Below are positions 32,799 to 56,287 of a stretch of 64,000 bases of DNA, piece by piece. Where the stretch lies: NCBI RefSeq assembly GCF_001281025.1, contig NZ_CP012646.1, positions 1,641,001-1,705,000 of the forward strand, in the 5' to 3' direction. Each line of letters begins with the position of its first letter. Position 1 is the first letter of the stretch. Position numbers and translations under genes: made by a program. The notes beneath the pieces were generated by a model. That model was not told the DNA's origin, ran no database searches, and was given only the letters and a program-made list of their open reading frames with translations. The stretch comes from Streptococcus mitis (GTDB lineage Bacteria; Bacillota; Bacilli; Lactobacillales; Streptococcaceae).

Positions 32799-34121
32799 TT
32801 AGGCGATTCTTGGAAAAGCTATGAAGAAGGTCAAACGATTCTCCTTCATCTCAAAACGATAAGGTAATTTTTCATGTTCCAATAGACTCTTGACCACAAA
32901 GAGCCCCATCCCAGAACCCTTGGCCTTGCGACTAGCATTATCAGAAAAAGACTGAGCCAGTTTTTCTTGTTCTTCAGGACTACAGCTATTCTCGATAAAA
33001 AGTTCCCCTTCTCTCTCTCCGATGCGGACCAAGCCGCCTGGAATGGAGTGCTTGATAGCATTGCTGATGAGATTAGACAGGATTAATTTCATCACAGATG
33101 GATTTAGATAAGCCTGCTGGTGGTTCAAACTATTGTCAATCTGAAGTTCTCTCTCCTTTGCTAGCAAAGAATAATCTTGAACTAGACTTTGCGTCATCTG
33201 GAGGAGATCTATTATTTCCCTATCATCTCGCAATTCCTGCACAGAAGAGAGAGAAAGTATCTGGAGAACGTGGTGATTGAGCTCATCCACAATTCCTAAG
33301 GCTACTCCCAGATAGCGGTCTCTATCCTTATAACGACCGATATTTTCTTTCATGTTTTCAATCAGGATTTTCAAACTAGCTAAGGGTGTTTTCAGTTCAT
33401 GGGAAGCCCCTCGTAGGAATTCGACCTTCATCTTTTCCAGCTGGAGAATAGCTTCATTCTTGTCATGCAAGTCCGCAATGACAGTCAAAAGATGCTGGTA
33501 GAGGCTATTGATTTGTTCCTTGAGATCACCAATCTCATCCCTAGAATCCACGTGCAATCGCACTTGGGCATCCAGTTCCATCATTCTACGAGTTACTCGC
33601 TTGATTTCCAAAATCGGGGCAACAATGGTCCGAGCATAGATATAGGCTACCAAAAGGGAAATCAGAAAGGATGCCAGCAAGGTATAGGGAAGAAACTGGA
33701 GACTGATTTGCTCTGCTTCCTTTTGCAAATCCATGGACGCTAAAAACTGGAGAGTCATGGTACCACCGTCCTGCGTTTTCACCTCGCGCTCCTCGATAAA
33801 AAGAGAGGTTGTCTGGCGATCTGTATCCAGAGGAAGGCTGTCCTTTACTTCTAACTTGTCCTCGGTCATCTCGCCCTTGACGGTCCCCTTGATATCACTA
33901 GTCTGAGAATACAAGTCTAAGACTTGCTCGATATTCTGCCTATCCTTACCTTCTAGGGACTGGGCAATGGCTGTCGCTTTCTGACCAATGGTTTCCTGAC
34001 GATGACTCAGATAAGTCGAAGGAAAAAGAAAATAAATAGCCAAATGAAGGCAGATAACCAGAACACTAAATATCGAGAAGGTATAGATAAATATCTTTGT
34101 AAATAAACCTGTTCGTTTCAT
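32799..34121 (-). CDS. vncS: Sensor histidine kinase VncS
   Basis: A 440-residue membrane kinase: N-terminal helix, an extracellular domain of about 130 residues, a second helix around 140-165, HAMP, and the H-box GASHELKTPLASLK. ATP-binding N and G boxes follow (NLISNAIKHS; GSGMGLFVVKSLL). In pneumococcus VncS was proposed to sense the secreted peptide Pep27. It overlaps vncR by 4 bp. In this genome the pep27 gene is split (see findings), so its ligand is in question. Confidence 0.92.
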   Translation of the reverse strand: MKRTGLFTKIFIYTFSIFSVLVICLHLAIYFLFPSTYLSHRQETIGQKATAIAQSLEGKDRQNIEQVLDLYSQTSDIKGTVKGEMTEDKLEVKDSLPLDTDRQTTSLFIEEREVKTQDGGTMTLQFLASMDLQKEAEQISLQFLPYTLLASFLISLLVAYIYARTIVAPILEIKRVTRRMMELDAQVRLHVDSRDEIGDLKEQINSLYQHLLTVIADLHDKNEAILQLEKMKVEFLRGASHELKTPLASLKILIENMKENIGRYKDRDRYLGVALGIVDELNHHVLQILSLSSVQELRDDREIIDLLQMTQSLVQDYSLLAKERELQIDNSLNHQQAYLNPSVMKLILSNLISNAIKHSIPGGLVRIGEREGELFIENSCSPEEQEKLAQSFSDNASRKAKGSGMGLFVVKSLLEHEKLPYRFEMKENRLTFFIAFPRIA

Positions 34122-34774
34122 TTTCGCTCCAATTTATAACCAACATTGCGCACAGTGAGGATGCAATCCAAGTCTAGCTTTTTCCGCAGTTCCTTGATAT
34201 AAACATCAATGACACGGTCAAAGGGAACCTCATCTGTCGCTTTCCATACGGCATCGATTATCTGAGATCGAGTCAATGCCCTTCCTTCATTTTTCACCAG
34301 ATAGTTCAAAATTTCCAACTCTTTAGCATTAACAGCCACTTCTTGACCTGCTAGGCTGGCACTGTAGCTCTCAAAGTCCACCTTGGTATCCTTATAGGAG
34401 AAGATTCGTCCCGTATCATAATAGCGCTTGAAAATCGCGTCTACCCTCACTTTTAAGAGGGACAGAGAAAAAGGTTTTTCCAGATAGCCATCTGCCAGAG
34501 AGGCAAAGGCACTCATCTTGTATTCCTCATCTTGAAAGGCGGTCAGCATCAAGACAGGGGCCTGACTAGTCTTACGAATCTCCGCTATGACTTCTAAGCC
34601 ATTGAGCTTGGGCATCTGGATGTCCAGTAAAACCAAGGCTACTTCATAGCTGGAAAATTTTTCTAAGGCTTCTTGCCCATCTGCAGCCTCAATGGTTTCA
34701 TAACCACAATCCGTCAAATAGTCACTGATCCCTTCACGGATCATCTCTTCATCTTCTACAATTAAAATTTTCAT
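34118..34774 (-). CDS. vncR: Response regulator VncR (OmpR family)
   Basis: A 218-residue OmpR-type regulator. The receiver domain has the phospho-acceptor Asp in LVLLDIQMPKLNG, then LTAFQDEEYK and YLEKPFS. The C-terminal winged helix ends VRNVGYKLE. Its own -10 TATAAT lies at 34830-34835, inside the degenerate pep27 tail. Candidate target: the TTTCATA direct repeat before vex1 (41918-41935), though this is inference. Confidence 0.92.
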   Translation of the reverse strand: MKILIVEDEEMIREGISDYLTDCGYETIEAADGQEALEKFSSYEVALVLLDIQMPKLNGLEVIAEIRKTSQAPVLMLTAFQDEEYKMSAFASLADGYLEKPFSLSLLKVRVDAIFKRYYDTGRIFSYKDTKVDFESYSASLAGQEVAVNAKELEILNYLVKNEGRALTRSQIIDAVWKATDEVPFDRVIDVYIKELRKKLDLDCILTVRNVGYKLERK

Positions 34775-34817: not shown

Positions 34818-34892
34818 CTACTCTATTTTATTATATCCTCTTACTGGCCTTTTGTCTTTAAGAAACTGACCACTAGATAAAACAAAGAGAGC
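34818..34892 (-). pseudogene. pep27: 3' part of a pep27-like gene
   Basis: Minus-strand frame of 24 codons between two stops, with no start codon: ALFVLSSGQFLKDKRPVRGY then NKIE. From Val onwards it matches residues 8-27 of the pneumococcal Pep27 peptide at about 14 of 20 positions (VLSSGQ, L, DKRP, R, YN). The missing first seven residues of Pep27 appear instead 3.4 kb away in the leader of the LysM gene. The fragment begins within the T-tract side of the LysM terminator. The Pep27 sequence is quoted from memory. Confidence 0.75.
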
Positions 34893-34906
34893 CTACCGCT
34901 CTCTCT
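34879..34906 (-). terminator. Terminator of the LysM surface-protein gene
   Basis: Minus-strand AGAGAGC-GGTAG-GCTCTCT followed by TTGTTTT. Its 3' arm and T-tail overlap the start of the pep27-like fragment. Confidence 0.8.
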
Positions 34907-34936
34907 GCTCACATTTGGCTCTCTATGGACTGAAAA

Positions 34937-37900
34937 TTATTTAGCTGCTTTTGAAAATGTTACAACGTAATTATAATCTTTCCCATTAGCTTGATATACA
35001 TAGTCCTCTTTGAAAGTATAGCCACGTTTGCTCAACTCTTCTTTCTTAGCATCAACTTGGTTCTTGACAGCTGCTTTAACCTGTTCATTTGTTGAACCTT
35101 CCGCGACTTCAAGAGGAGTTCCATTGATATCTCCTAGGAAACCTGCAATATCTTTCATTTGATCAAAGTTATAAAAAACATTGACTTTGACCTTTTGAGG
35201 AGCTGGCTGTTCTAGACTTCTACGATTTCTGCTAGCGCGTGGTTGAACTGCTGGAGCCATTCTGAAACCTGAAGTTCCTGTAGTCTCCTTAGTGAATGTA
35301 ACGACGTAGTTATAATTTTTCACAGTAGTATCTTGTTCAAAAATAATGTCATTTTTCACATGATACCCTCTAGCAGCTAAGTCTTTTATCTTGGCTTGAA
35401 TTTTTTCTTTTACTAGCTCTTTTGCCTGTGCTTCACTCGTTCCAGCAGGAATTTTGACAGTGTTATCTTCTCCCGGGTCAGATAGAAAACCATGAATATC
35501 TGGCATTCCAGCGAAGTTATAGCTAATATTTACAGTTCCATCTGGTTCTGATGTTGAACGTGCCACTCTTCTTGCTCTTGCTTGAACTGATGGGGCATTT
35601 CTAAAACTTGAAGTCCCTTCTGAAGTTGAAGAAGGTTGTGCTGGAGTTGTTGCTGTATCTTCACCAGACCCATGACCTATTGCTGTACTTCCATCATTAA
35701 TAGTAGTACCCTCATTACGACCATTTGTTAAATTATCTTTATTATAATTTGGTGCAGGTAATTCTTCACCTGGAACATTAATCTCATCAATCTTAGTTTG
35801 ATATTCATCCGTAGCATCTACTGCTGCATCGTGATCTTTAGCATTATTTATCGCTTCTAATCCTGCTTCTTTTAATTCTTTTAATTGAGCTTCTAACTTA
35901 GCTTTTTCTGCTTCATCTTTAACTTTTTCAATTTCACTAAGTTTTGAAGCCGCAATTTTTTCAATAACATCTTTTCCATCTTTTTTTGCTTCCTCAAGTT
36001 TTTCACCTTTAGGTGCTACTTCTTCAGACGGAGTATCTTCTTTGGGTGCCGGAGCCGGATTTGATGTATCTCCATTTTGATTAGTTGGTAGTTTATCCTC
36101 TTTGGGTGTTGTTACTTCTGGTTTTGAAGCTGGAGTTTCAGGTTGTTCTGTAGTCCCTGTGTTTGAAGTAGTACCATATGTTAGCGGACTTGATGTTGCT
36201 GTATTCCCTGAATCATTTGTAGCTTCCGCAGATGGAGTATTAGAAGGTTCTGACGTTGTTTCAGATTTACCTGATTCTCCAGCTGGCTGTTCAGTGAAAT
36301 TGGGCTCGCCTGAAGCGTCCAGTGACGAAGTTGAGTCACCTGTAGGAGTTTCAGATGGTGTTCCTGACTCGTCTGAATGATTGCCTGTTGATGGAGATTC
36401 AACTGAAGAACCTGATTCATCGTCTTTCGGTGCTGATGACGCTGGTGTTGCTGGTTCTTCCACTTTCGGCGCTGGTGTCGTTGGTTCCTCTGCTTTCGGT
36501 GCTGGTGTCGCTGGTTCTTCCACTTTCGGTGCTGGTGTTGCTGGTTCCTCTACTTTTGGTGATGGAGTCGATGGTTCTTCCACTTTTGGTGCTGGAGTCG
36601 ATGGCTCCTCTACTTTTGGTGATGGAGTCGATGGTTCTTCCACTTTTGGCGCTGGAGTCGATGGCTCCTCTACTTTTGGTGATGGAGTCGATGGTTCTTC
36701 CACTTTTGGCGCTGGAGTCGATGGCTCCTCCACTTTTGGTGATGGAGTCGATGGTTCTTCTGCTTTTGGCGCTGGAGTCGATGGCTCCTCTACTTTTGGC
36801 GCTGGAGTCGATGGTTCTTCTGCTTTTGGCGCTGGAGTCGATGGTTCTTCCACTTTTGGCGTTGTTGCCACTGGCTCTTTTGTTTTTGGCTCAGTTGCTG
36901 CTGGTTCTTCTGCTTTTGGTGCTGAAGACGCTGGCTCCTCTACTTTTGGCGCTGGAGTCGATGGTTCTTCTGCTTTTGGCATTGAAGTCGATGGCGCTTC
37001 TACTTTCGGTGCCGGAGTCACTGGTACCTCTGCTTTTGGTGCTGGAGTCAATGGCGCTTCTGCTTTCGGTGCTGGAGTCGATGGTGCCTCTGCTTTCGGT
37101 GCTGGAGTTGCTGGTGCCTCTGCTTTTGGTGCTGGAGTTGCTGGCTCTTCTGTTTTCGGTGCTGGAGTCGATGGTAACTCTGCTTTTGGTGCTGAAGTCG
37201 ATGGTCCTTCTGCTTTTGGCATTGGAGACGCTGGTGCCTCTGCTTTCGGTGCTGGAGTCGATGGTTCTTCTGCTTTTGGCATTGGAGTCGATGGCGCTTC
37301 TACTTTCGGTGCCGGAGTCACTGGTACCTCTGCTTTTGGCGCTGGCGCTTCAGAACTTGGATTTGAAGCTACAGGTTGATTTGTAGTTCCTATATTTGAA
37401 GGGGCCTTGTCTGCTGCTGGACTTGATTCAGTTGAGTTTCCTGACCCATTTGTAGTATATGCAGATGGAGCATTTAAAGTTTCTGACCTTGTTTCTGCTT
37501 TTGACGCTACTGGAGCTTCTGTTTCTTCCTTAACTTCTGGGCTTGTCTCTGCTGGTGCTTCTGAGGCAAGTTCTTCACCCGATTCTTCCGCTCTTTCCAC
37601 TACTGGAGCTGATACAGGCTGATAGACTGGGCTATAGTTCACAGCCATTTTTTCAACTTTCTCAGTGACATCTGTTAATTCAAAAGTAACAGCTTTTGTC
37701 TCTTGATCTTTCTTGAGCAAGACTTCGTAAGTGCGAACTTCGCCACTTGCACCACTTTCCTTGATGACAATCTTGTGTTTTGTGACTGTATCTGAAATCG
37801 TTTCAGCTTCAGTAAAGTACAATTCATTGTGCGGTAAGAATAAATTCTTGCCTGAAGTTTGATTCATTTCTTGGAGTACATCTACAGGGATATTACTTGC

Positions 37901-38149
37901 TTCGCTGATAACACTTAATGTGTCCCCCCACTTAATAACATACTTAAATAAATCACCTTCTTTTTGAATATCAGCTTTTACTTCTGCAACTGTTCTGGCT
38001 ACCCAGATACCATCTTGTTCACTGGCTGACACAGTTGGAGCTAAAAAGCCCAGCCCCAATAAAATCACACCTGTCGCAACAATTGCACCAGTTCTTAATT
38101 TTCTAAAGCCACGGAGGGATAATGTTCCTCTAACATTTGTTTGTCTCAT
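34937..38149 (-). CDS. Large secreted LysM protein with proline-rich repeats and duplicated C-terminal domain
   Basis: A 1070-residue protein. Signal peptide 1-42 (cleavage after VSA); LysM about 69-112 for cell-wall binding. About 30 degenerate 10-residue repeats of type PSTPAPKVEE lie at about 267-570, a wall-spanning stalk. A DUF1542-like helical segment follows at about 710-790. Two copies of an unrecognised ~80-residue domain (about 870-950 and 986-1070) both end NYNYVV/DYNYVVTF and share a basic linker. No LPXTG. The gene sits between vex3 and vncR, where pneumococcus has pep27. Likely surface-exposed adhesin or wall protein; function unknown. Confidence 0.85.
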   Translation of the reverse strand: MRQTNVRGTLSLRGFRKLRTGAIVATGVILLGLGFLAPTVSASEQDGIWVARTVAEVKADIQKEGDLFKYVIKWGDTLSVISEASNIPVDVLQEMNQTSGKNLFLPHNELYFTEAETISDTVTKHKIVIKESGASGEVRTYEVLLKKDQETKAVTFELTDVTEKVEKMAVNYSPVYQPVSAPVVERAEESGEELASEAPAETSPEVKEETEAPVASKAETRSETLNAPSAYTTNGSGNSTESSPAADKAPSNIGTTNQPVASNPSSEAPAPKAEVPVTPAPKVEAPSTPMPKAEEPSTPAPKAEAPASPMPKAEGPSTSAPKAELPSTPAPKTEEPATPAPKAEAPATPAPKAEAPSTPAPKAEAPLTPAPKAEVPVTPAPKVEAPSTSMPKAEEPSTPAPKVEEPASSAPKAEEPAATEPKTKEPVATTPKVEEPSTPAPKAEEPSTPAPKVEEPSTPAPKAEEPSTPSPKVEEPSTPAPKVEEPSTPSPKVEEPSTPAPKVEEPSTPSPKVEEPSTPAPKVEEPSTPSPKVEEPATPAPKVEEPATPAPKAEEPTTPAPKVEEPATPASSAPKDDESGSSVESPSTGNHSDESGTPSETPTGDSTSSLDASGEPNFTEQPAGESGKSETTSEPSNTPSAEATNDSGNTATSSPLTYGTTSNTGTTEQPETPASKPEVTTPKEDKLPTNQNGDTSNPAPAPKEDTPSEEVAPKGEKLEEAKKDGKDVIEKIAASKLSEIEKVKDEAEKAKLEAQLKELKEAGLEAINNAKDHDAAVDATDEYQTKIDEINVPGEELPAPNYNKDNLTNGRNEGTTINDGSTAIGHGSGEDTATTPAQPSSTSEGTSSFRNAPSVQARARRVARSTSEPDGTVNISYNFAGMPDIHGFLSDPGEDNTVKIPAGTSEAQAKELVKEKIQAKIKDLAARGYHVKNDIIFEQDTTVKNYNYVVTFTKETTGTSGFRMAPAVQPRASRNRRSLEQPAPQKVKVNVFYNFDQMKDIAGFLGDINGTPLEVAEGSTNEQVKAAVKNQVDAKKEELSKRGYTFKEDYVYQANGKDYNYVVTFSKAAK
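36440..37350 (-). repeat. 30-bp tandem repeats coding the PSTPAPKVEE stalk
   Basis: About 30 in-frame copies of a 30-bp unit. Between about 36540 and 36740 it takes a higher-order 60-bp form alternating PSTPAPKVEE and PSTPSPKVEE. Copy number is expected to vary by slippage without changing frame. Confidence 0.9.
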
Positions 38150-38244
38150 AATGTTTATTTTTCCTCACTAATCTATATTTTCCAAAGTAGACTCTTCCTA
38201 GGCCTACTAGCCTATGTTTGCGATATGCACAGGCTTCTACAGAT

Positions 38245-38334
38245 TTATCTATCTATTTTCAAAATAAAGTTTCTATAGATTCTTATGCACAATTCCATAT
38301 ATAAGTTGTGAAATTCCTTTCTAATAGATTCCAT
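38245..38334 (-). CDS. Short leader ORF containing the 5' codons of pep27
   Basis: A 29-codon frame, MESIRKEFHNLYMELC then IRIYRNFILKIDR, in the leader of the LysM gene. Residues 5-10 (RKEFHN) equal residues 2-7 of pneumococcal Pep27. The codon at the Pep27 Met1 position is ATT here, and an in-frame ATG lies three codons upstream. That ATG is 6 nt after the -10 TATACT, a leaderless arrangement. Sequence diverges from Pep27 exactly after Asn, where the other fragment (34818-34892) picks up. Translation is unproven. Confidence 0.6.
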   Translation of the reverse strand: MESIRKEFHNLYMELCIRIYRNFILKIDR

Positions 38335-38340: not shown

Positions 38341-38370
38341 AGTATATCATGTTTAAGTACCAAAGTACAA
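38341..38370 (-). promoter_or_regulatory. Promoter of the LysM gene / pep27-like leader
   Basis: Minus-strand TTGTAC (38365-38370), 18-bp spacer, TGA-TATACT (-10 at 38341-38346). The interrupted palindrome GTACCAAAGTAC (38357-38368) overlaps the -35 and could be an operator. The 38150-38504 interval otherwise holds the leader ORF and a hairpin at 38474-38492. Confidence 0.65.
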
Positions 38371-38473
38371 AGAAAGCAACTGAAAGCAATGATTTTCACC
38401 ACTGCTTTCGGCTCTATTTTGAATTGTTAAATAGCCATTCTCTATCCACCATTCTTGAATAAAAAATAAGATG

Positions 38474-38504: not shown

Positions 38505-39884
38505 TTATTCACTATCCAGCAAGAGCTCTTTTGGTTGTTTTCTTAGGAGATTGCTTGAAGCAAGCGCCATAACGAGAACCACTAGAACCAAGGCAAGGAC
38601 AAAGACGATGATAAAGTCTGATGTCTGAATGGAAATATCTAGGCTCGACAAGGTCTTACTAAAGCTATCTACTTCTGCACCACCACCAAGGTTAGAGGCT
38701 TGAGCAGCCTTGCTAGCTTGCTTGGCAACACCTGAAGTGACATTGGTAAGAACAGTATTTCCGATTGCACGCGCTGTGTAAGTAGCTAAGAAGTAAGCAG
38801 AAACAAGAGCAGGGATGGCAATCAAGATGGATTCAGTGATGAATTGACCCAAGATACTTGCCTGCTTGAGACCAATAGAGAGGAGAATACCCACTTCCTT
38901 GCGACGGGCATTGATCCAAAGGCTGAGCAAGAGGGCAAGGAGAAGAACTGAGAAACTCAAGCTACCCCAGAAGAGGAGATTGGCCATCTTGTACATACCA
39001 GAGATGGATTGCTCAAGAGCTGGGTAGTTAGAGGAGCTCTTAACGAGTGTATAGCTCTTCCAGTTGATACCACTGATGCCATTCAACTCTTTCATGACGT
39101 CATCCAAGTTCTTGTCCGCTGTCACAAAGAAGGTTGCGTCCCCATAAATAGCTGTGTCTTCTGTGTATCCATAAAGTTTTGCAGCAGTGTGAATGTCTGT
39201 GATAGCTGTATTTTCATAGAGTTCTTGTGAGTAGGTTACTGCTGACTTATTATGACCATCAAAGAGTCCCTTGATTGTCACTTCGACTGTTTCCTTGGCA
39301 CCTTTTTCATTGTCTGCATCGTAGATATTAGAGTCTAGTTTGACCTTGTCCCCTACTTTCCAGCCGTGTTTGGCTGCCAAGTCCTTGTGCAGGAGGATCT
39401 TGTCCTTGTCGTCGTTGGTTAAGTGCTCACCTTCGACCAACTTATAAGAACCAGAGACAAACTTGTCTTCTTTAGAAGAGTCATTGACTCCTGTAATCAT
39501 CAAGCTACTTCCAAAATGTTTAGCACGGTCAGGTGTCAGATTTTTCTTGGTATCTGGCGTTTCGATGAGTTCATAGCCAGTCAAATCTCCAATGGCATTG
39601 ATGCGTTTAACATAATACTCAATGGCCTTGTTTTCGGTGATTTTTTTGATGTCTTCACCCTTAATATTCCCAGCACCACGAGGCGTTCCTTGATTGACGC
39701 GACGATTGATTTGCATGGAGAAGCTGTTGGTGATATTTTTAAAGGTCTCCTGAGAAGCCTTGGCAGTAGCTCCCTTGATCGACAAGCCGACCAAACTCAA
39801 GCTCGCCATGAGGAGAATAATCAGGAAGATGACAATCGATTTGAAAAACTTCCTTGTAACGTAGGCAAATGCGTTGTGTAACAT
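38505..39884 (-). CDS. vex3: ABC transporter permease Vex3 (MacB/FtsX type)
   Basis: A 459-residue FtsX-type permease. N-terminal helix (IVIFLIILLMASLSLVGLS), a large extracellular domain of about 260 residues, and three C-terminal helices with the FtsX motif LWINARRKEVGILLSIG. It is the third gene of vex1-vex2-vex3, which in pneumococcus was proposed to export Pep27. Paralogous to Vex1. Here the pep27 gene is split, so another cargo is possible. Confidence 0.9.
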   Translation of the reverse strand: MLHNAFAYVTRKFFKSIVIFLIILLMASLSLVGLSIKGATAKASQETFKNITNSFSMQINRRVNQGTPRGAGNIKGEDIKKITENKAIEYYVKRINAIGDLTGYELIETPDTKKNLTPDRAKHFGSSLMITGVNDSSKEDKFVSGSYKLVEGEHLTNDDKDKILLHKDLAAKHGWKVGDKVKLDSNIYDADNEKGAKETVEVTIKGLFDGHNKSAVTYSQELYENTAITDIHTAAKLYGYTEDTAIYGDATFFVTADKNLDDVMKELNGISGINWKSYTLVKSSSNYPALEQSISGMYKMANLLFWGSLSFSVLLLALLLSLWINARRKEVGILLSIGLKQASILGQFITESILIAIPALVSAYFLATYTARAIGNTVLTNVTSGVAKQASKAAQASNLGGGAEVDSFSKTLSSLDISIQTSDFIIVFVLALVLVVLVMALASSNLLRKQPKELLLDSE

Positions 39885-39939: not shown

Positions 39940-40587
39940 TTATTTCGTAGTATCGCGAGTTTCAGTCAGTTTCTTGTCCTTCAACTCAAGTGTAATATCT
40001 GACGCTTGTGCCACTTCTTTACTGTGGGTGACGACAATCACACATTTACCTGTTTTCTGGGCAAGTGATTTGAGCAGTTCGACAATATCTCCAGCAGTTT
40101 TAGGGTCCAGATTTCCCGTTGGCTCATCCGCTAGAATAACTGGAGCTTCTGAGACCAAACTACGAGCAATGGCAACACGTTGCTGTTGACCACCTGATAA
40201 CTGGAGAACATTCCGCTTGATCTGACTTTCATCCAAACCAAGCTCAAGCAGTGTATCCTTGCTTGCCTTTTTGTTGACCAAGCGGATATTTTCCAGTGGA
40301 GAAAGATAATCTATCAAGTTATAATTTTGAAAGACCAGGGAAATATGGTGCATGCGATGGTAAGAATAGCCCTTCTTACGAATATCCTCTCCTTGAAAAA
40401 GGATAGAACCTTCAACAGGACTATCTAAACCAGCAAGGAGGGACAAGAGAGTGGATTTCCCCGCTCCTGACTCCCCAATAATACTGTAAAATTTCCCGGG
40501 TTCAAAATTATAATTGATCTGATATAGGACTGCTTCAGCAGTGTTCTTATAACGGTAGGTAACATCTTGTAATTGTAATAAAGTCAT
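39940..40587 (-). CDS. vex2: ABC transporter ATP-binding protein Vex2
   Basis: A 215-residue LolD/MacB-type ATPase: Walker A GESGAGKST, Q-loop LVFQNYNLI, signature [15 protein letters not shown], Walker B VILADEPTGNLD and switch His VTHSKEVA. It drives the Vex1/Vex3 permease pair. It lies 12 bp after vex1 and 55 bp before vex3. Confidence 0.93.
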   Translation of the reverse strand: MTLLQLQDVTYRYKNTAEAVLYQINYNFEPGKFYSIIGESGAGKSTLLSLLAGLDSPVEGSILFQGEDIRKKGYSYHRMHHISLVFQNYNLIDYLSPLENIRLVNKKASKDTLLELGLDESQIKRNVLQLSGGQQQRVAIARSLVSEAPVILADEPTGNLDPKTAGDIVELLKSLAQKTGKCVIVVTHSKEVAQASDITLELKDKKLTETRDTTK

Positions 40588-40599: not shown

Positions 40600-41877
40600 T
40601 TAACTAATAGATGATAAAATTTCTTTCGGCGATTTTCTAAATAAGAATAGGAAACAAAGTGCTACAGATAAGCAACTGAGCAGAACTAGAAAAACATAGG
40701 ATTCTGCAAAAGATAAGATACTGGTTGATAAACTGCTTGCTTTGGCTAGCGTGTCTTGTAAGACTGCCTGATCTCCACTGGCTAGGACAGTTTGGAGCAG
40801 ATAGGATGTAATGGCATTTCCAGCGATAAAGGATGGAAGCAAAGCTCCGAGAGATACCAAAACTACCTCTAAACAGAACTGTAGGAAAATCGAGCTCTTG
40901 CCTTTTCCAAGCGCCAGTAAAATTCCCACTTCGTAGACCCTTTCTCTCAACCAGAGAGACAAAACAAGAATTAAGGCTCCTGCTCCTGCTATCAACATCC
41001 CATAAAGGAAAATGGTCAGAAAGGTTTGGAAGGTTGCAACTGAGTCTTTGATTTGTTCAAAAGCCTTGTTCTCCTTCTCAACTTGGTAACCTTGACTAAC
41101 CAAGGACAAGTTTTCTACCTGCTTCATGAGTCCGTCCATTTCCTTAGGATTTTCTACATAGAAGCGCGCTGCACTAACTTGAGGTTCGCTATTGCCCAAA
41201 AGAGTTTGGCTACTTTCATAGTCTGTAAAGACTTGGTTTTCACTGAAGTCAGAAGACAAGCCTGTGAATTTCTCTTGTTTTTTACCAGAAAAGATGCCGA
41301 CAATCTCAAACTCGACAGTTTGTCCTTTACCAGCTTCTGACTGTCCAGCATCCAAGCGAAGCTTGTCATGAAGCGAAAGACCGTTCTTCTTGGCCAACTC
41401 TTCGTGAATAAGGATTTTCTTTGAATCCCCTTTTTGAAGATGTCGCCCTTCTTTTAGATTGAAAGCTGAACTGGTAAAGGTGACATCCTTGGATGAATCC
41501 TCAAGTGCCGTTAAGCTAACCAAGTTCTTGTCCGCAGCTGACAAATCATCACGCTCCACGCTCTGCTCGCCACTCACTACTTCCTTGTCTTTCAGTTTTG
41601 CGACCGTCTCGAGTTCAGGAGAGACATTTTCCAGTCCCTTAATCTTGCTCACGGACGCTATCTCTGACAACTTGAAGGTCTGCCCATTTTCTATCTTCTT
41701 AATAGAAAAAGATGTGTTGAGTGATTTGTAAAGATTGGTTTCAACTGTTTTGTTGGACTTCATCAGAGTCAAACAGGCTGAAATTCCAGCCAATAGGACC
41801 AATAAAATCAGAAATAAAATAAAACTTCTCAGTCGTTTTCTGCTGACATAAGCCCAAGCTATTTGGATTGGATTCAT
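40600..41877 (-). CDS. vex1: ABC transporter permease Vex1 (MacB/FtsX type)
   Basis: A 425-residue permease with the same plan as Vex3: N-terminal helix, ~230-residue extracellular domain, and three C-terminal helices with LWLRERVYEVGILLALG. First gene of the operon, SD GGAGGTG. Upstream is a -10 TATAAT at 41903-41908 with a TTTCATA direct repeat where the -35 should be, suggesting activator dependence. Confidence 0.9.
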   Translation of the reverse strand: MNPIQIAWAYVSRKRLRSFILFLILLVLLAGISACLTLMKSNKTVETNLYKSLNTSFSIKKIENGQTFKLSEIASVSKIKGLENVSPELETVAKLKDKEVVSGEQSVERDDLSAADKNLVSLTALEDSSKDVTFTSSAFNLKEGRHLQKGDSKKILIHEELAKKNGLSLHDKLRLDAGQSEAGKGQTVEFEIVGIFSGKKQEKFTGLSSDFSENQVFTDYESSQTLLGNSEPQVSAARFYVENPKEMDGLMKQVENLSLVSQGYQVEKENKAFEQIKDSVATFQTFLTIFLYGMLIAGAGALILVLSLWLRERVYEVGILLALGKGKSSIFLQFCLEVVLVSLGALLPSFIAGNAITSYLLQTVLASGDQAVLQDTLAKASSLSTSILSFAESYVFLVLLSCLSVALCFLFLFRKSPKEILSSIS

Positions 41878-42016: not shown

Positions 42017-42102
42017 TGCGGAGAGAGGGACTTGAACCCTCACGACCTAAAGCGGTCACAGGATCCTTAGTCCTGCGCGTCTGCCAATTCCGCCATCCCC
42101 GC
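42017..42102 (-). tRNA. tRNA-Leu (anticodon AAG)
   Basis: An 86-nt class II tRNA with a long variable arm. Acceptor GCGGGGA/TCTCCGC, anticodon stem CAGGA/TCCTG with loop CTAAGGA, T loop TTCAAGT, discriminator A. CCA is not encoded. Confidence 0.95.
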
Positions 42103-43801: not shown

Positions 43802-45376
43802 TTATTTATCGCCCTTGTTACGAATAACAAAGCCTGTTTTCTTTTCGCTTGAAGTATTGCGTGGTTTTTTATTATCCTTACGGTAACGTTTTTCCTTATC
43901 AAAACGATCGTTGCCACGACTTCCTTTTTTGAAATCATCACGGCGACCACCACGACGGTTGTCTCCTCGGCGATTATCACGACGGTCATCTCCACGACGA
44001 CCTCCCTTAGCGTTACCACCGAAGCCATTACCTGATGGTTTAAATGGCAGTGGTTTTTCACGTGCAATCTCCACTTCAGGAAGACTATCTGGGTCTTGAA
44101 CAGTCAGACTCAAGATATACATTGCCAATTCTTCTAGAGTAAATTCGGCAGCTAGCTTACGAGCATCCTTACCAAATTTCTCAAAGTTGGCACGGATAGT
44201 CTCATCTGCAAAATCACGTTCGATTTTCTTGAGAGCTACGTGTTTTTTTACTTGGAAGGCTTCTTCTGCGCTTGCAGGTTTAAGGCCTTTCATGCGTTTC
44301 TTAGTCAAGTTTTCAATGATTTGGAGGTAGCCCATTTCATTTGGTGATACGAAAGTAATAGACTGACCTGACTTACCGGCACGACCTGTACGACCGATAC
44401 GGTGAACATAACTTTCAGGATCTTGTGGAATATCGTAGTTATAGACATGGGTCACACCTGAAATATCCAACCCACGTGCTGCAACGTCTGTCGCAACCAA
44501 AACATCAAGATTGCCATTTTTAAAGTCACGAAGGACACGAAGACGTTTGTTTTGGTCTAGGTCTCCATGAATTCCTTCTGCACGGAAGCCACGGATTTTC
44601 AAACCACGAGTCAATTCATCCACACGACGTTTGGTACGACCAAATACGATAGCAAGCTCAGGCTGTTCCACATCCATGAGACGAGTCATGGTATCAAATT
44701 TTTCTTGCTCTTTAACTCGGATATAGTATTGGTCAACCAATTCTGTTGTTAATTCCTTAGCAGCAATCTTCACATGCTCAGGTTCTTTCATAAACTGAAC
44801 ACCGATACGTTTGATGGCATCTGGCATAGTTGCTGAGAAAAGTAAGGTTTGACGGCTTTCAGGAACACGGGAGATGATAGCTTCAATGTCTTCAAGGAAG
44901 CCCATGTTGAGCATTTCATCCGCTTCGTCAAGGATAAGAGTTTCAATATCTTGTAATTTCAAGGCCTTGCGTTTAATCAAGTCCAAGAGGCGACCAGGTG
45001 TTCCCACCACGATATGGGCACCAGATTTAAGAGCCTTAATTTGCTTTTCAATGCTTGATCCGCCATATACTGAACGGACTTTGACTCCCTTACTACGACC
45101 AAAGCGGAAGAGTTCTTCTTGACTTTGGACAGCTAGTTCACGAGTTGGAGCGATGACCAAGGCTTGGATAGTTGCTTCTTCTGTACGAATTTTTTCAAGA
45201 GTTGGCAAACCAAAAGCCGCAGTTTTTCCCGTACCAGTCTGAGCTTGACCGATAACGTCCTTGCCTTCAAGGGCCAAGGGAATGGTTTGTTCTTGGATCG
45301 GACTGGCTTCTACAAAACCAGCTTTTTCAATCTCTGCTAGCAAATCAGCAGACAAGTTTAATTCATTAAATTTCAC
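43802..45376 (-). CDS. cshA: DEAD-box RNA helicase CshA
   Basis: A 524-residue helicase with Q motif [10 protein letters not shown], motif [16 protein letters not shown], then the RecA2 domain with ATDVAARGLD and HRIGRTGRAG, and a Gly/Arg/Asp-rich RNA-binding tail (DDRRDNRRGDNRRGGRR). Acts in mRNA turnover, ribosome assembly and cold adaptation. The 5' 551 bp lie inside the duplicated unit, but this copy is complete. A leader of about 145 nt with hairpins precedes it. Confidence 0.96.
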   Translation of the reverse strand: MKFNELNLSADLLAEIEKAGFVEASPIQEQTIPLALEGKDVIGQAQTGTGKTAAFGLPTLEKIRTEEATIQALVIAPTRELAVQSQEELFRFGRSKGVKVRSVYGGSSIEKQIKALKSGAHIVVGTPGRLLDLIKRKALKLQDIETLILDEADEMLNMGFLEDIEAIISRVPESRQTLLFSATMPDAIKRIGVQFMKEPEHVKIAAKELTTELVDQYYIRVKEQEKFDTMTRLMDVEQPELAIVFGRTKRRVDELTRGLKIRGFRAEGIHGDLDQNKRLRVLRDFKNGNLDVLVATDVAARGLDISGVTHVYNYDIPQDPESYVHRIGRTGRAGKSGQSITFVSPNEMGYLQIIENLTKKRMKGLKPASAEEAFQVKKHVALKKIERDFADETIRANFEKFGKDARKLAAEFTLEELAMYILSLTVQDPDSLPEVEIAREKPLPFKPSGNGFGGNAKGGRRGDDRRDNRRGDNRRGGRRDDFKKGSRGNDRFDKEKRYRKDNKKPRNTSSEKKTGFVIRNKGDK

Positions 45377-45705
45377 GATATTCTTCTTTCTAAAGGTGGT
45401 GCGAAGCCACCCTATAGGGCTTAGTTTATACTTTTCTTTTTATGACGTATTTTCATATACTGGATATAAAATCGTGTTGCTTCTTTTCCACAAAAGAAAA
45501 GTACTGTTTTCTTTGCAACCTATCTAGTATAACACAAGAGAGAAGCAAAAGATAGCCCAATCCATCGATAATATCATGTAAACGATTTTTCTGAGAAAGT
45601 AAGGCTATAATTTCCACTATTTCATAAACTTTTTTAAAGCGTAGCAGAATTGTGCAAAAGTTTTTTTCTTGTGCTAGAATGAAAATCGAATAGGAGGAAC
45701 TCTAA
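45377..45705. other. cshA/har divergent intergenic region
   Basis: Holds the cshA promoter (TGT-TATACT near 45523-45528 on the minus strand), a ~145-nt cshA leader with a GGTGGCTTCGCACCACC hairpin close to the start codon, and the har promoter (TGC-TAGAAT, -10 at 45675-45680). Repeated at 51182-51510. Confidence 0.65.
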
Positions 45706-47022
45706 ATGTTAACTTATGATTTAATCGTTATCGGATTTGGTAAAGCTGGTAAAACACTAGCTGGTAAATTGGCTTCAGCTGGCAAAAAAGTTGCTCTCGT
45801 TGAACGTAGCAAAGCTATGTACGGTGGAACTTGTATCAACATCGGATGTATCCCAACTAAGACTTTGCTAGTTGCTGCTGAGAAAGACTTGTCTTTTGAA
45901 GAAGTGATTGCTACCAAAAACACTATCACTGGTCGCCTCAACGGTAAAAACTATGCTACTGTTGCTGGTACAGGCGTAGATATCTTTGATGCGGAAGCTC
46001 ACTTCCTTTCAAATAAAGTCATCGAAATCCAAGCTGGTGATGAAAAGAAAGAACTGACTGCTGAAACAATCGTCATCAACACTGGTGCTGTTTCAAACGT
46101 CTTGCCAATCCCTGGACTTGCTACAAGCAAAAACGTCTTTGACTCAACAGGTATCCAAAACTTGGACAAATTACCTGAAAACCTTGGAGTCCTTGGTGGT
46201 GGAAATATCGGTCTTGAATTTGCCGGCCTTTACAACAAACTTGGAAGCAAGGTCACAGTCCTAGATGCCTTGGATACTTTCCTTCCTCGTGCAGAACCTT
46301 CCATCGCAGCTCTTGCTAAACAATACATGGAAGAAGACGGTATTGAATTGCTTCAAAATATCCGTACTACTGAAATTAAAAATGACGGTGACCAAGTGCT
46401 TGTCGTAACTGAAAATGAAACTTACCGTTTCGATGCCCTTCTTTACGCAACTGGACGCAAACCAAATGTAGAACCACTTCAACTTGAAAATACAGATATT
46501 GAACTAACTGAACGTGGTGCTATTAAAGTGGACAAACATTGTCAAACAAACGTTCCTGGTGTCTTTGCAGTTGGAGATGTCAACGGTGGCCTTCAATTTA
46601 CTTACATTTCACTTGATGACTTCCGTGTTGTTTACAGCTACCTTGCTGGAGATGGTAGCTACACGCTTGAAGACCGTCTCAATGTACCAAACACCATGTT
46701 TATCACACCTGCCCTTTCACAAGTCGGTTTGACTGAAAGCCAAGCAGCTGATTTGAAACTTCCATACGCCGTTAAGGAAATCCCTGTTGCTGCGATGCCT
46801 CGTGGTCATGTAAATGGCGACCTTCGCGGAGCTTTCAAAGCTGTTGTGAATACTGAAACAAAAGAAATTCTCGGTGCAAGCATCTTCTCAGAAGGTTCTC
46901 AAGAAATCATCAATATCATCACTGTTGCTATGGACAACAAGATTCCTTACACTTACTTCACAAAACAAATCTTCACTCACCCAACCTTGGCTGAGAACTT
47001 GAATGACTTGTTTGCGATTTAA
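45706..47022 (+). CDS. har: Flavin-dependent hypothiocyanous acid reductase-type oxidoreductase (copy 1)
   Basis: A 438-residue class I pyridine nucleotide-disulfide oxidoreductase (RclA-like). FAD-binding GFGKAGKTLAG at the N-terminus, redox disulfide Cys43-Cys48 in GGTCINIGCIP, NAD(P)-binding GGGNIGLEFAG, and a late FTHPTLAEN with the catalytic His. Pneumococcal members reduce hypothiocyanous acid, protecting against peroxidase-derived oxidants. SD AGGAGG. Ends at a clear terminator. Confidence 0.9.
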   Translation: MLTYDLIVIGFGKAGKTLAGKLASAGKKVALVERSKAMYGGTCINIGCIPTKTLLVAAEKDLSFEEVIATKNTITGRLNGKNYATVAGTGVDIFDAEAHFLSNKVIEIQAGDEKKELTAETIVINTGAVSNVLPIPGLATSKNVFDSTGIQNLDKLPENLGVLGGGNIGLEFAGLYNKLGSKVTVLDALDTFLPRAEPSIAALAKQYMEEDGIELLQNIRTTEIKNDGDQVLVVTENETYRFDALLYATGRKPNVEPLQLENTDIELTERGAIKVDKHCQTNVPGVFAVGDVNGGLQFTYISLDDFRVVYSYLAGDGSYTLEDRLNVPNTMFITPALSQVGLTESQAADLKLPYAVKEIPVAAMPRGHVNGDLRGAFKAVVNTETKEILGASIFSEGSQEIINIITVAMDNKIPYTYFTKQIFTHPTLAENLNDLFAI

Positions 47023-47042
47023 GTTGAGATTTAATCGTATCG

Positions 47043-47066
47043 AACAGCCCTCTTTGGGCTGTTTTT
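47043..47066 (+). terminator. har terminator (copy 1)
   Basis: AACAGCCC-TCTTT-GGGCTGTT followed by TTT; repeated at 52848-52871. Confidence 0.88.
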
Positions 47067-47105
47067 ACTTCTGCGAAATCTCAAATCTGTCTTTTCCCTC
47101 TTTTA

Positions 47106-47123
47106 TGATATAATAGAAACATG
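47106..47123 (+). promoter_or_regulatory. murT-gatD promoter, leaderless configuration (copy 1)
   Basis: TGATATAAT with the -10 at 47109-47114; 6 nt later is the murT ATG at 47121. No SD. Repeated at 52911-52928. Confidence 0.75.
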
Positions 47124-48464
47124 AAATTAAAAACTACTTTGGGCCTCCTAGCTGGGCGCTCTTCCCACTTCATTTTAAGCCGTCTTGGCCGTGGAAGTAC
47201 GCTTCCAGGAAAACTTGCCCTTCAATTTGATAAAGATATTTTACAAAACCTAGCTAAGAACTACGAGATTGTCGTGGTCACTGGAACCAACGGAAAAACC
47301 CTGACAACTGCCCTCACTGTCGGCATTTTAAAAGAGGTTTATGGTCAAGTTTTGACCAACCCAAGCGGTGCCAACATGATTACAGGAATTGCGACGACCT
47401 TCTTGACTGCCAAATCTTCTAAAACCGGAAAAAACATTGCCGTCCTAGAAATTGACGAAGCCAGTCTATCTCGTATCTGTGACTATATCCAGCCAAGCCT
47501 TTTTGTCATCACGAATATCTTCCGTGACCAGATGGACCGCTATGGTGAGATTTACACAACTTACAAGATGATTTTGGACGCTATTCGTAAGGTGCCTACT
47601 GCCACTGTTCTCCTTAATGGAGACAGTCCACTTTTTTACAAGCCAGCTATTCCAAATCCTGTAGAGTATTTTGGTTTTGACTTGGAGAAAGGCCCAGCCC
47701 AGCTGGCTCACTATAATACAGAAGGAATTCTCTGTCCTGACTGCCAAGGCATCCTCAAATATGAGCACAATACCTATGCAAACTTGGGTGCCTATATCTG
47801 TGAAGGTTGTGGATGTAAACGTCCTGATCTCGACTATCGCTTGACAGAATTGGTTGAGTTGACCAACAATCGCTCTCGCTTTGTCATTGACGGACAAGAA
47901 TACGGTATTCAAATCGGTGGTCTCTACAATATCTACAACGCCCTAGCAGCGGTTGCTATCGCCCGTTTCCTTGGTGCAGATTCACAACTCATCAAGCAGG
48001 GATTTGATAAGAGCCGTGCTGTCTTTGGACGCCAAGAATCCTTCCATATCGGTGACAAGGAATGTACCCTCGTCTTGATTAAAAATCCAGTCGGTGCGAC
48101 CCAAGCTATCGAAATGATTAAACTAGCACCTTATCCATTTAGTCTATCTGTTCTCCTAAATGCCAACTATGCAGATGGAATTGATACCAGCTGGATCTGG
48201 GATGCTGATTTTGAACAAATCACTGACATGGACATTCCCGAAATCAACGCTGGCGGTGTTCGTCATTCTGAAATCGCTCGTCGTCTACGAGTAACAGGCT
48301 ATCCAGCTGAGAAAATCACTGAAACAAGTAGTCTGGAGCAAGTTCTCAAGACCATTGAGAACCAAGACTGCAAGCATGCTTATATTCTGGCTACCTATAC
48401 TGCTATGCTTGAATTCCGCGAACTGCTGGCTAGTCGTCAGATTGTTAGAAAGGAGATGAACTAA
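47121..48464 (+). CDS. murT: Lipid II isoglutaminyl synthase subunit MurT (copy 1)
   Basis: A 447-residue Mur-ligase-like subunit that, with GatD, amidates the alpha-carboxyl of D-glutamate in lipid II, needed for cross-linking and essential in pneumococcus. ATP site VTGTNGKT. A four-cysteine zinc ribbon (CPDC ... CEGCGC) is inserted in the central domain, and a DUF1727 C-terminal domain carries the [11 protein letters not shown] region. It overlaps gatD by one base (TAATG). No ribosome site. Confidence 0.95.
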
Positions 48465-49246
48465 TGGTTTATACTTCACTTTCCTCAAAAGCTGGCAATT
48501 ACCCCTATCAGCTCAACATTGCCCACCTCTACGGAAATCTCATGAATACCTACGGGGACAATGGAAACATCCTCATGCTCAAGTATGTGGCTGAAAAACT
48601 GGGAGCCCATGTGACGGTTGACATCGTTTCTCTCCATGATAGCTTTGATGAAAATCACTACGACATTGCCTTTTTCGGTGGTGGTCAAGACTTTGAACAG
48701 AGTATCATTGCAGACGACCTACCTGCTAAAAAAGAGAGCATTGACAACTACATCCAAAACGACGGTGTGGTTCTGGCTATCTGCGGTGGTTTCCAACTAT
48801 TGGGCCAATATTATGTTGAAGCTTCAGGGAGACGCATCGAAGGACTAGGGGTCATGGGCCACTACACCCTCAATCAGACCAATAACCGTTTTATCGGGGA
48901 CATCAAGATTCACAATGAAGATTTCGATGAAACCTACTATGGTTTTGAAAATCATCAGGGCCGTACCTTCCTCTCAGATGATCAAAAACCGCTGGGACAG
49001 GTTGTCTATGGAAATGGAAATAACGAAGAAAAAGTCGGCGAAGGTGTTCATTATAAGAATGTCTTTGGTTCCTACTTCCACGGGCCTATCCTCTCTCGTA
49101 ATGCCAATCTAGCTTATCGCCTAGTCACTACTGCCCTCAAGAAGAAATATGGTCAGGACATTCAACTCCCTGCTTATGAGGACATTCTCAGCCAAGAAAT
49201 CGCTGAAGAATACAGTGATGTCAAAAGCAAGGCTGACTTTTCTTAA
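48464..49246 (+). CDS. gatD: Lipid II isoglutaminyl synthase glutaminase subunit GatD (copy 1)
   Basis: A 260-residue class I glutamine amidotransferase-like subunit, CobB/CobQ type. Nucleophile Cys in [11 protein letters not shown], catalytic His in [13 protein letters not shown]. Supplies ammonia from glutamine to MurT. SD GGAG overlapping the murT end. Followed by a perfect terminator. Confidence 0.95.
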
Positions 49247-49265
49247 ACAAAGGAAAATGATATCA

Positions 49266-49297
49266 AAGAACTCCGTTATCTTGTCGGAGTTCTTTTT
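49266..49297 (+). terminator. murT-gatD terminator (copy 1)
   Basis: AAGAACTCCG ... CGGAGTTCTT followed by TTT; repeated at 55071-55102. Confidence 0.88.
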
Positions 49298-49373
49298 GTC
49301 TGTTCTTTTACCCTTCTCCCTTGCATTTTCTCTCATTTTTTGCCAAAATAGAGGGGTAGAAAGAAGGTAGCAT

Positions 49374-50456
49374 ATGTCTAAATTACAACAAATCGTAACA
49401 TATCTTGAATCAGAAAAACTAGACGTCGCTGTCGTATCTGACCCCGTCACAATCAATTACCTCACTGGCTTTTACAGTGATCCCCATGAACGCCAAATGT
49501 TCCTTTTTGTCCTAGCAGATCAGGAACCTCTCCTCTTTGTCCCAGCCCTTGAGGTTGAGCGTGCAAGCAGCACTGTTTCCTTCCCAGTTGTGGGCTATGT
49601 GGATTCTGAAAATCCATGGCAAAAAATGAAACATGCTCTTCCACAACTTGACTTCAAACGTGTCGCTGTTGAGTTTGACAATCTCATCTTGACCAAATAT
49701 CATGGCTTGAAAATAGTCTTTGAAACTGCTGAGTTTGAAAACCTCACTCCTCGTATCCAACGTATGCGCCTTATCAAATCAGCTGACGAAGTGCAAAAAA
49801 TGATGGTGGCCGGTCTCTATGCGGACAAGGCTGTTAAGGTTGGTTTTGACAATATTTCTCTTGATAAGACTGAGACAGATATTATTGCCCAAATCGACTT
49901 TGCTATGAAGCGTGAAGGTTATGAAATGAGTTTTGATACCATGGTCTTGACTGGTGATAATGCTGCAAATCCACACGGTATTCCAGCAGCAAACAAAGTT
50001 GAAAATAACGCCCTTCTCCTCTTTGACCTTGGTGTTCTAGTCAACGGCTATGCGTCAGATATGACTCGTACGGTCGCTGTCGGCAAACCAGACCAATTCA
50101 AGAAAGATATTTACAACTTAACTCTTGAAGCCCAACAAGCTGCTCTTGACTTTATCAAGCCAGGTGTGACTGCTCATGAAGTGGACCGCGCGGCCCGTGA
50201 GGTCATTGAAAAAGCTGGTTACGGCGAGTACTTCAACCACCGTCTTGGTCACGGTATCGGTATGGATGTCCACGAATTCCCATCTATCATGGAAGGAAAC
50301 GACATGGTCATCGAAGAAGGCATGTGCTTCTCTGTTGAACCAGGTATCTATATCCCTGGTAAAGTCGGTGTCCGTATCGAAGACTGTGGTGTTGTTACCA
50401 AAGATGGCTTTGACCTCTTTACAAACACCAGCAAAGACTTGCTTTATTTTGATTAA
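49374..50456 (+). CDS. pepQ: Xaa-Pro dipeptidase (copy 1)
   Basis: A 360-residue M24 metallopeptidase cleaving X-Pro dipeptides. Creatinase-like N-domain, then metal ligands in FDLGVLVNGYASDMTRT, RLGHGIGMDVHE, FSVEPGIY and RIEDCGV. SD AGAAGG before the ATG. Cytoplasmic, used in peptide nutrition. Monocistronic. Confidence 0.95.
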   Translation: MSKLQQIVTYLESEKLDVAVVSDPVTINYLTGFYSDPHERQMFLFVLADQEPLLFVPALEVERASSTVSFPVVGYVDSENPWQKMKHALPQLDFKRVAVEFDNLILTKYHGLKIVFETAEFENLTPRIQRMRLIKSADEVQKMMVAGLYADKAVKVGFDNISLDKTETDIIAQIDFAMKREGYEMSFDTMVLTGDNAANPHGIPAANKVENNALLLFDLGVLVNGYASDMTRTVAVGKPDQFKKDIYNLTLEAQQAALDFIKPGVTAHEVDRAAREVIEKAGYGEYFNHRLGHGIGMDVHEFPSIMEGNDMVIEEGMCFSVEPGIYIPGKVGVRIEDCGVVTKDGFDLFTNTSKDLLYFD

Positions 50457-50482
50457 AATTCTTCGAAAATCTTCCCACAATA

Positions 50483-50529
50483 AAACGCATAGTATCAAGG
50501 TTTTTCAACACCTGATACTATGCGTTTTT
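50483..50529. terminator. pepQ terminator (copy 1)
   Basis: ACGCATAGTATCA-AGG ... CCTGATACTATGCGT followed by TTTT; same family as the hairpin after queA. Repeated at 56288-56334. Confidence 0.85.
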
Positions 50530-50559
50530 CTTATTTGAAAGACTTTTGACTCAGCCTCA

Positions 50560-50630
50560 TTACTTAATCTTCTTGATACTTTGACTAAGGATAAATCCTA
50601 CAATCATCCCTACCATATTTTGCATGAAAT
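50560..50630 (-). pseudogene. 3' remnant of the ECF transporter gene
   Basis: The final 71 bp of the ECF S-component gene ([20 protein letters not shown]) left at the right end of unit 1. The gene is complete at 56365-56826. Confidence 0.9.
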
Positions 50631-51181
50631 ATAGTTGCTGAGAAAAGTAAGGTTTGACGGCTTTCAGGAACACGGGAGATGATAGCTTCAATGTCTTCAA
50701 GGAAGCCCATGTTGAGCATTTCATCCGCTTCGTCAAGGATAAGAGTTTCAATATCTTGTAATTTCAAGGCCTTGCGTTTAATCAAGTCCAAGAGGCGACC
50801 AGGTGTTCCCACCACGATATGGGCACCAGATTTAAGAGCCTTAATTTGCTTTTCAATGCTTGATCCGCCATATACTGAACGGACTTTGACTCCCTTACTA
50901 CGACCAAAGCGGAAGAGTTCTTCTTGACTTTGGACAGCTAGTTCACGAGTTGGAGCGATGACCAAGGCTTGGATAGTTGCTTCTTCTGTACGAATTTTTT
51001 CAAGAGTTGGCAAACCAAAAGCCGCAGTTTTTCCCGTACCAGTCTGAGCTTGACCGATAACGTCCTTGCCTTCAAGGGCCAAGGGAATGGTTTGTTCTTG
51101 GATCGGACTGGCTTCTACAAAACCAGCTTTTTCAATCTCTGCTAGCAAATCAGCAGACAAGTTTAATTCATTAAATTTCAC
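50585..51181 (-). pseudogene. cshA: Truncated cshA, fused at the duplication junction
   Basis: The first 183 codons of cshA with its own promoter and leader, joined at 50630/50631 to antisense ECF sequence that adds 15 residues ([15 protein letters not shown]). The predicted 198-residue product keeps Q motif, ATP site, DEAD and SAT (RecA1 domain) but has no RecA2 domain. It cannot unwind RNA, but if stable it could bind ATP or compete with CshA. Probably expressed, since all upstream signals are intact. Confidence 0.88.
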
Positions 51182-51510
51182 GATATTCTTCTTTCTAAAG
51201 GTGGTGCGAAGCCACCCTATAGGGCTTAGTTTATACTTTTCTTTTTATGACGTATTTTCATATACTGGATATAAAATCGTGTTGCTTCTTTTCCACAAAA
51301 GAAAAGTACTGTTTTCTTTGCAACCTATCTAGTATAACACAAGAGAGAAGCAAAAGATAGCCCAATCCATCGATAATATCATGTAAACGATTTTTCTGAG
51401 AAAGTAAGGCTATAATTTCCACTATTTCATAAACTTTTTTAAAGCGTAGCAGAATTGTGCAAAAGTTTTTTTCTTGTGCTAGAATGAAAATCGAATAGGA
51501 GGAACTCTAA
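51182..51510. other. Truncated-cshA/har intergenic region (copy 2)
   Basis: Copy of 45377-45705, with the same two divergent promoters and the structured helicase leader. Confidence 0.65.
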
Positions 51511-52827: not shown

Positions 52828-52847
52828 GTTGAGATTTAATCGTATCG

Positions 52848-52871
52848 AACAGCCCTCTTTGGGCTGTTTTT
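52848..52871 (+). terminator. har terminator (copy 2)
   Basis: Copy of 47043-47066. Confidence 0.88.
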
Positions 52872-52925
52872 ACTTCTGCGAAATCTCAAATCTGTCTTTT
52901 CCCTCTTTTATGATATAATAGAAAC

Positions 52926-55051: not shown

Positions 55052-55070
55052 ACAAAGGAAAATGATATCA

Positions 55071-55102
55071 AAGAACTCCGTTATCTTGTCGGAGTTCTTT
55101 TT
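55071..55102 (+). terminator. murT-gatD terminator (copy 2)
   Basis: Copy of 49266-49297. Confidence 0.88.
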
Positions 55103-55178
55103 GTCTGTTCTTTTACCCTTCTCCCTTGCATTTTCTCTCATTTTTTGCCAAAATAGAGGGGTAGAAAGAAGGTAGCAT

Positions 55179-56261: not shown

Positions 56262-56287
56262 AATTCTTCGAAAATCTTCCCACAATA

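Follow-up and report, generated by a model that had tools for sequence, protein, structure and literature searches.

A probable deletion origin for pneumococcal pep27, viewed from a LysM-containing vex-vncRS locus of Streptococcus mitis

In the literature on Streptococcus pneumoniae, Pep27 figures as a death signal that the Vex transporter exports and VncS senses. It is further described as a virulence factor and as underlying live attenuated vaccine strains. The VncRS system is autoregulated and also regulates vex123 in strain D39V (PMC11034029), and a review table lists later studies that failed to confirm a role of Pep27 in tolerance (PMC12029793). In Streptococcus pasteurianus (PMC3102119) and Erysipelothrix rhusiopathiae (PMC9637936), Vex and Vnc genes are likewise found and pep27 is described as lacking. 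Among the matches listed for PMC titles and abstracts, none deals with how pep27 originated. Here, the pneumococcal vex123-pep27-vncRS locus (the model of Novak et al.) is compared with its counterpart in a 64,000-nucleotide stretch of the Streptococcus mitis contig NZ_CP012646.1 (positions 1,641,001 to 1,705,000; hereafter, the window). The window shares with pneumococcus the order of the Vex123 and VncRS genes and both DNA halves of pep27. Unlike pneumococcus, it has a gene for a LysM surface protein between these halves, no Pep27 start codon and no intact Pep27; one half belongs to a leader and the other to a terminator/promoter. In contrast to the S. pasteurianus and E. rhusiopathiae reports, in which pep27 is simply lacking, a noncoding precursor is present here and serves to infer which way the change went. 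We propose, with a probability of about 0.88, that pep27 arose in the pneumococcal lineage through the loss of approximately 3.4 kb and that the window strain represents the pre-deletion form. The junction is exact, both of its sides have noncoding ancestry, the intact frame is present in one of 284 Streptococcus genomes, and pneumococcus is nested among LysM carriers. Open reading frames (ORFs) born de novo through a deletion that fuses noncoding segments are a general concept. The pneumococcal frame resembles them, as it is an open frame made from two noncoding parts and missing in outgroups; it differs in that papers already treat its product as a signal peptide and as a target for vaccine attenuation.

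The junction between the two pieces of pep27

The locus reads vex1, vex2, vex3, LysM ORF, vncR, vncS and fba, all on the minus strand, with gene names at the vex-vnc locus assigned by synteny (Table 1). Genes for Vex123 and VncRS are thus present in the pneumococcal order, and an intact pep27 ORF between vex3 and vncR is absent. The codons for RKEFHN are found at 38322-38305, and the right piece, at 34883-34818, reads VLSSGQFLKDKRPVRGYNKIE followed by a stop codon. These coordinates are those of the preliminary description, which had also noted correctly that the right piece overlaps the LysM terminator: it begins in the 3' arm of a hairpin with a folding energy of -19.6 kcal/mol (z -5.45) that is missing from the list of a simple terminator scan. 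The window frame begins ATGGAATCTATT..., so it is without the ATG that serves as the Pep27 start.

At the DNA level, the left piece matches the pneumococcal genome (G157, loci L131/L093; G numbers denote genomes and L numbers loci) in 233 of 258 columns, with E 3e-97, and ends at window position 38305. The right piece matches in 138 of 145 columns, with E 2e-63, and begins at 34883. In G157, the two pieces abut with zero bases between them, which means that 3421 bp of the window are missing there. The break therefore falls precisely between pep27 codons 7 and 8 (38305 | 34883), where the preliminary description had placed it. No shared bases, and thus no microhomology, were seen by eye at the junction, and the remainder of the terminator hairpin is gone in G157. 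Each piece has a single occurrence in the window's own genome, by which a second intact copy of pep27 in this genome, one of the outcomes that the preliminary description had named as fatal to its case, is rejected; the DNA-level homology that it had wanted checked is strong.

The frame in G157 reads MEFMRKEFHNVLSSGQLLTDKRPARDYNRK. The published Pep27 (PMC1199608, Table 1) begins at the second Met of this frame, with Ala replacing Thr. The identity of G157 as pneumococcus is indicated by exact matches to 17 of the 18 D39 primers printed in PMC6177237, compared with six of 18 at best in 29 other loci. The D39 pep27 primer from that paper extends one base beyond the junction, and D39 agrees that far.

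The vex3-vncR interval in other streptococci

The genome set comprised 284 Streptococcus genomes, one per species. The preliminary description had proposed a search with each half-sequence separately; run in this way, both pieces are clear in the same 24 genomes, on the same contig and approximately 2.2-5.4 kb apart in 20, on different contigs in three, and adjacent only in G157. In two of the 24 (G101 and G102), the right-piece match consists of only the last 41 nt, beside vncR. With either piece as the query, six further genomes gave short matches only, with E 1.5e-4 or weaker. A search with the 27-residue Pep27 matched residues 1-27 in G157 alone. Matches in 21 other genomes start at residue 8 (20 genomes) or residue 11 (one genome), that of the window covers residues 8-26 (74%, E 3.7e-4), and 12 further genomes are at chance level (E 0.13-0.94). 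The view that the window strain keeps Vex and VncRS without an intact Pep27 is thereby upheld, as its pieces lie 3.4 kb apart and the match starts at residue 8.

A VncR scan of the genome contigs gave 453 relatives, of which the best 80 were kept. By our own classification, their vex3-vncR intervals are of the LysM type in 19 loci, 131-146 nt in 22 (three of which are longer owing to a repeat) and 73-79 nt in 39. The pep27 junction occurs in none of the 77 readable intervals among these 80 (three are cut by contig ends), and vex3 adjoins vncR without pep27 in all 61 short-interval loci. These short intervals come from S. mitis/oralis, S. infantis and S. parasanguinis-type records, and those of the S. 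oralis and S. infantis types hold a hairpin with TATAAT inside and no pep27. No exact match to the junction was found in IMG/VR contigs. A repeat upstream of vncR, with ends like ATACTCTTCGAAAATC...GATTTTCATTGAGTAT and a length of approximately 100 nt or more, is seen in both interval types (LysM type: L010, L012, L013, L014, L021, L028, L029, L034, L062 and, inverted, L145; short type: L002, L015 and L056) and looks like a small mobile element.

Both sides of the junction are noncoding in the relatives. At the position of the Pep27 start codon, the 23 LysM genomes have ATT (19) or AGT (4) and never ATG. The first start codon of the LysM leader is ATG in 17, GTG in three and lost in three (GTT in L012 and L150, AAG in L062), and a conserved leader peptide as the ancestor of Pep27 is consequently unsupported. 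On the right side, codons 8-27 and the stop of G157 (63 nt) are identical to intergenic DNA in two of 21 relatives (L003 and L032), where a terminator hairpin precedes them, and indels that are not divisible by three occur among the others. Frame 0 downstream of the break is open for 19-31 codons in 21 of 21 LysM-type relatives, and an immediate stop is met only in the third frame (20 of 21), so an open frame at the fusion is unsurprising. Pneumococcal pep27 thus consists of two parts that are each homologous to noncoding DNA, and, among the genomes and readable intervals searched, the intact ORF is found only in the derived lineage. For these counts, L030 was left out of the leader set, as its upstream DNA comes from elsewhere, and L149 stands for its genome (G158); L007, L019 and L035, which meet contig ends, were left out of the right-piece and junction sets. 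The start codon and promoter of L062 were read by eye from the alignment and those of the other 22 genomes by script.

Two LysM-type records are titled S. pneumoniae (L030 in G158 and L031 in G159), which makes public species labels unreliable. Their divergence from G157 over rpoB and the gyrB-family region is approximately 4% or more: 3.97% for G159, while G158 is outside the eight genomes nearest to G157, which end at 4.03%. Both are nonetheless near G157 in the 12.2-kb tree described below.

Predicted transcription and function of the pneumococcal frame

In the species of the window, the LysM gene, with promoter, leader and terminator, and vncR, with its own promoter, would form separate transcription units. 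This arrangement is shared by many S. mitis/pneumoniae clade genomes, and we take it as the pre-deletion interval. A net loss of approximately 3.4 kb, from 30 nt into the leader through to the T-rich end of the terminator, would have joined the LysM leader to the terminator tail and the predicted vncR promoter. The fusion would by chance have left an open frame of 27-30 codons, now named pep27. The LysM promoter motif TG-n-TATACT is present in 23 of 23 LysM genomes, and G157 instead has TAA-TATACT. The hairpin behind vex3 is retained in pneumococcus. The LysM terminator is gone, and the old LysM promoter should therefore read through pep27 into vncRS, with vncR's own promoter lying inside the frame. 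As the first ATG sits at the expected transcript start, the Pep27 peptide would stem from a nearly leaderless message. These statements on transcription and translation in pneumococcus are predictions from the DNA. The vncR promoter has TATAAT in 20 of 21 aligned LysM-type loci and CATAAT in L025, and its counterpart in G157 is CAGACA-17-TATAAT. Since promoter-like matches in this region are no commoner than in shuffled DNA (six found, 5.4 expected), which counts against the proposed rewiring, the prediction relies on position and conservation.

Because many species have vex3 and vncR without pep27, it is unlikely that Vex123 originally exported Pep27 or that VncS originally sensed it. Removal of pep27 would also remove the predicted vncR promoter, and some phenotypes ascribed to the peptide may therefore be regulatory. 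Combined, these points lead to a wider reading that we regard as tentative and slightly more doubtful than even odds: Pep27 would be no signal peptide gene in origin or in function, its frame would have been left by the LysM deletion, vncRS would have been fused to a surface-protein promoter, and the mutant phenotypes would reflect loss of the embedded vncR promoter. The regulatory part of this reading is opposed by results in PMC6177237, where strains without pep27 are reported to be more strongly attenuated than those without vncR or vncS, a revertant recovers the phenotype, and Pep27 is detected on Western blots, including in secreted form. In that study, an oppositely oriented ermB cassette took the place of the target genes (figure legend), and the primer positions place the end of the pep27 reverse transcription PCR product within vncR. 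For these reasons, the experiments do not appear to separate the peptide from the promoter.

The same Western-blot detection, together with the attenuation of D39 upon pep27 deletion (PMC6177237), would be expected if the frame, although born by deletion, had later come under selection for a function as a signal or lysis peptide and were now a true de novo gene. The ATG at the Pep27 start, which occurs only in G157 and is also present in the D39 primer, points the same way. An in-frame upstream ATG makes this change needless for an ORF, however, and no coding adaptation is visible in codons 8-27, which are identical in G157 to the noncoding DNA of two relatives. Later studies have also left the role in tolerance unconfirmed, according to the table in PMC12029793. 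We consider such a functional gene unlikely, though a serious competitor. The preliminary description had held that a deletion scar would make Pep27 an accidental ORF: the accidental origin is well supported, and the frame may be functionless or pep27 deletions may act via vncR.

Direction of change and surrounding features

In a tree of 12,236 columns (12.2 kb) from rpoB and a gyrB-family gene, regions that lie far from the vex-vnc locus, pneumococcus is nested among the LysM carriers (27 genomes; G043, G180 and G261 were dropped as distant). A constraint that groups 22 LysM genomes to the exclusion of G157 was rejected by the approximately unbiased (AU) test at 1.8e-10; G245, which is of the LysM type and groups with G230, was kept out of the constraint. 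Unrooted locus trees of the vex and vnc blocks used 52 and 45 of 86 sequences, comprising 80 loci, five fetched regions and the window. They place G157 beside LysM genomes, with a support of 96 in the vex block.

Several results weigh against a deletion in the pneumococcal lineage. The same constraint is not rejected on the 7.0-kb core of both markers in 30 genomes (AU 0.06), the nearest neighbor of G157 is not the same in the two marker trees, and support for its position in the vnc-block tree is 42. From the marker trees, only the nesting of pneumococcus is claimed. The unrooted locus trees also intermix short-interval and LysM genomes, which implies that recombination has moved the vex3-vncR interval, and the "deletion" could therefore be a replacement through transformation. 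Finally, a single pneumococcal genome (G157) was read directly.

The opposite direction, in which an ancestral pep27 was interrupted between codons 7 and 8 by the arrival of the LysM gene in commensal relatives, would leave the identical two pieces and the identical break, and it is compatible with the 7.0-kb test. Such an insert, however, must carry the rest of the leader and a hairpin that needs pep27 codons to complete its 3' arm. It must also be reconciled with the nesting in the 12.2-kb tree, with an intact pep27 in one genome of the set and in none of the readable intervals, and with the missing Pep27 ATG in every LysM genome. We judge insertion to be very improbable. The preliminary description had offered it beside the scar of a deletion of approximately 3.4 kb that fuses the leader of the LysM gene with the promoter region of vncR; the scar is the alternative that the evidence favors, and the term "split" pep27 has the order of events backwards, as nothing found points to an earlier pep27 in this lineage. 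Chance resemblance or an assembly artefact can be set aside: the pieces are short as protein (six and 20 codons), but their DNA alignments are far beyond chance and they keep the same order on a single contig in 20 genomes.

In the product of the LysM ORF, an export signal is recognizable by eye, and there is a LysM domain match (PF01476, E 5.6e-4) whose 20.3 bits are slightly under the Pfam cut-off of 20.9. The ORF contains approximately 30 copies of a 30-nt tandem repeat (36441-37345), and it has no NCBIfam match and no PDB match at E 0.001. At least two types of LysM N-terminus occur at the locus, with 55-63% or 94-97% identity to the window (differing examples: L012, L013, L021, L029, L034 and L144-L148), which suggests allele replacement through recombination. 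In G157, no remnant of the gene was found beyond a distant LysM-type paralogue elsewhere in the genome (690955-691683, L184), a 385-residue frame with 32% identity to the window protein over residues 28-270. In G158, the LysM gene beside vncR (L030, contig C2) has unusual upstream DNA, and contig C20 (L149) holds vex3 together with the beginning of a LysM gene behind the usual leader; either this genome has another LysM copy elsewhere, or a contig is chimeric.

Table 1 Features of the vex-vncRS locus in the window.
Feature	Position	Strand	Basis or remark
vex1, ABC transporter permease	40600..41877	-	ORF; LolCE/MacB-type matches weak, under cut-off; name from synteny with pneumococcal locus
vex2, ABC transporter ATPase	39940..40587	-	ORF; ABC ATPase families, best TIGR03608 at 171.2 bits, under its cut-off
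vex3, FtsX-like permease	38505..39884	-	PF02687 (Pfam) at 71.1 bits, cut-off 25.5
Terminator-like hairpin 3' of vex3, upstream of LysM promoter	38382..38409	-	Pneumococcal counterpart L142 6612-6581
Predicted LysM promoter, TG-n-TATACT (extended -10), just 5' of first ATG	38341..38349	-	
Left piece: start of LysM leader, codons -3 to 7 of pneumococcal frame	38305..38334	-	ATT at the position of Pep27's ATG
3421-bp stretch missing from pneumococcus: remaining leader, LysM gene, most of terminator	34884..38304	-	Pieces adjacent in G157
LysM surface-protein gene, 1070 aa	34937..38149	-	ORF; LysM-like domain; tandem repeats
LysM terminator hairpin, 13 pairs	34880..34910	-	Codons 8-9 of pep27 open with its final 4 bases
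Right piece: intergenic DNA corresponding to pep27 codons 8-27	34818..34883	-	
Predicted vncR promoter, AAGACA-17-TATAAT, within pep27-like frame	34830..34858	-	
vncR, response regulator	34118..34774	-	Response-regulator families, under equivalog cut-offs
vncS, sensor histidine kinase	32799..34121	-	HAMP, HisKA and HATPase_c above cut-offs

Between 30000 and 45000, Rfam at the gathering score gave nothing in the leader and a single match, a tRNA at 42017-42102. Outside the locus, the window contains a perfect 5805-bp tandem duplication (44826-56435, in which 44826-50630 is repeated at an offset of 5805). This duplication carries genes for an FAD-dependent oxidoreductase and for MurT-like and PepQ-like proteins (names by eye), and it is either very recent or an assembly artefact.

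If pep27 is a deletion scar that overlaps the vncR promoter, Vex-VncRS would need another natural substrate or signal, and pep27-deletion mutants would need to be re-read as possible promoter mutants. The controversy over Pep27 could then be tested with a change of its start codon. The locus would also offer an example, at the level of single bases, of how, on the way toward a pathogen, a single deletion may abolish a surface protein, alter the wiring of a two-component system and give rise to an ORF.

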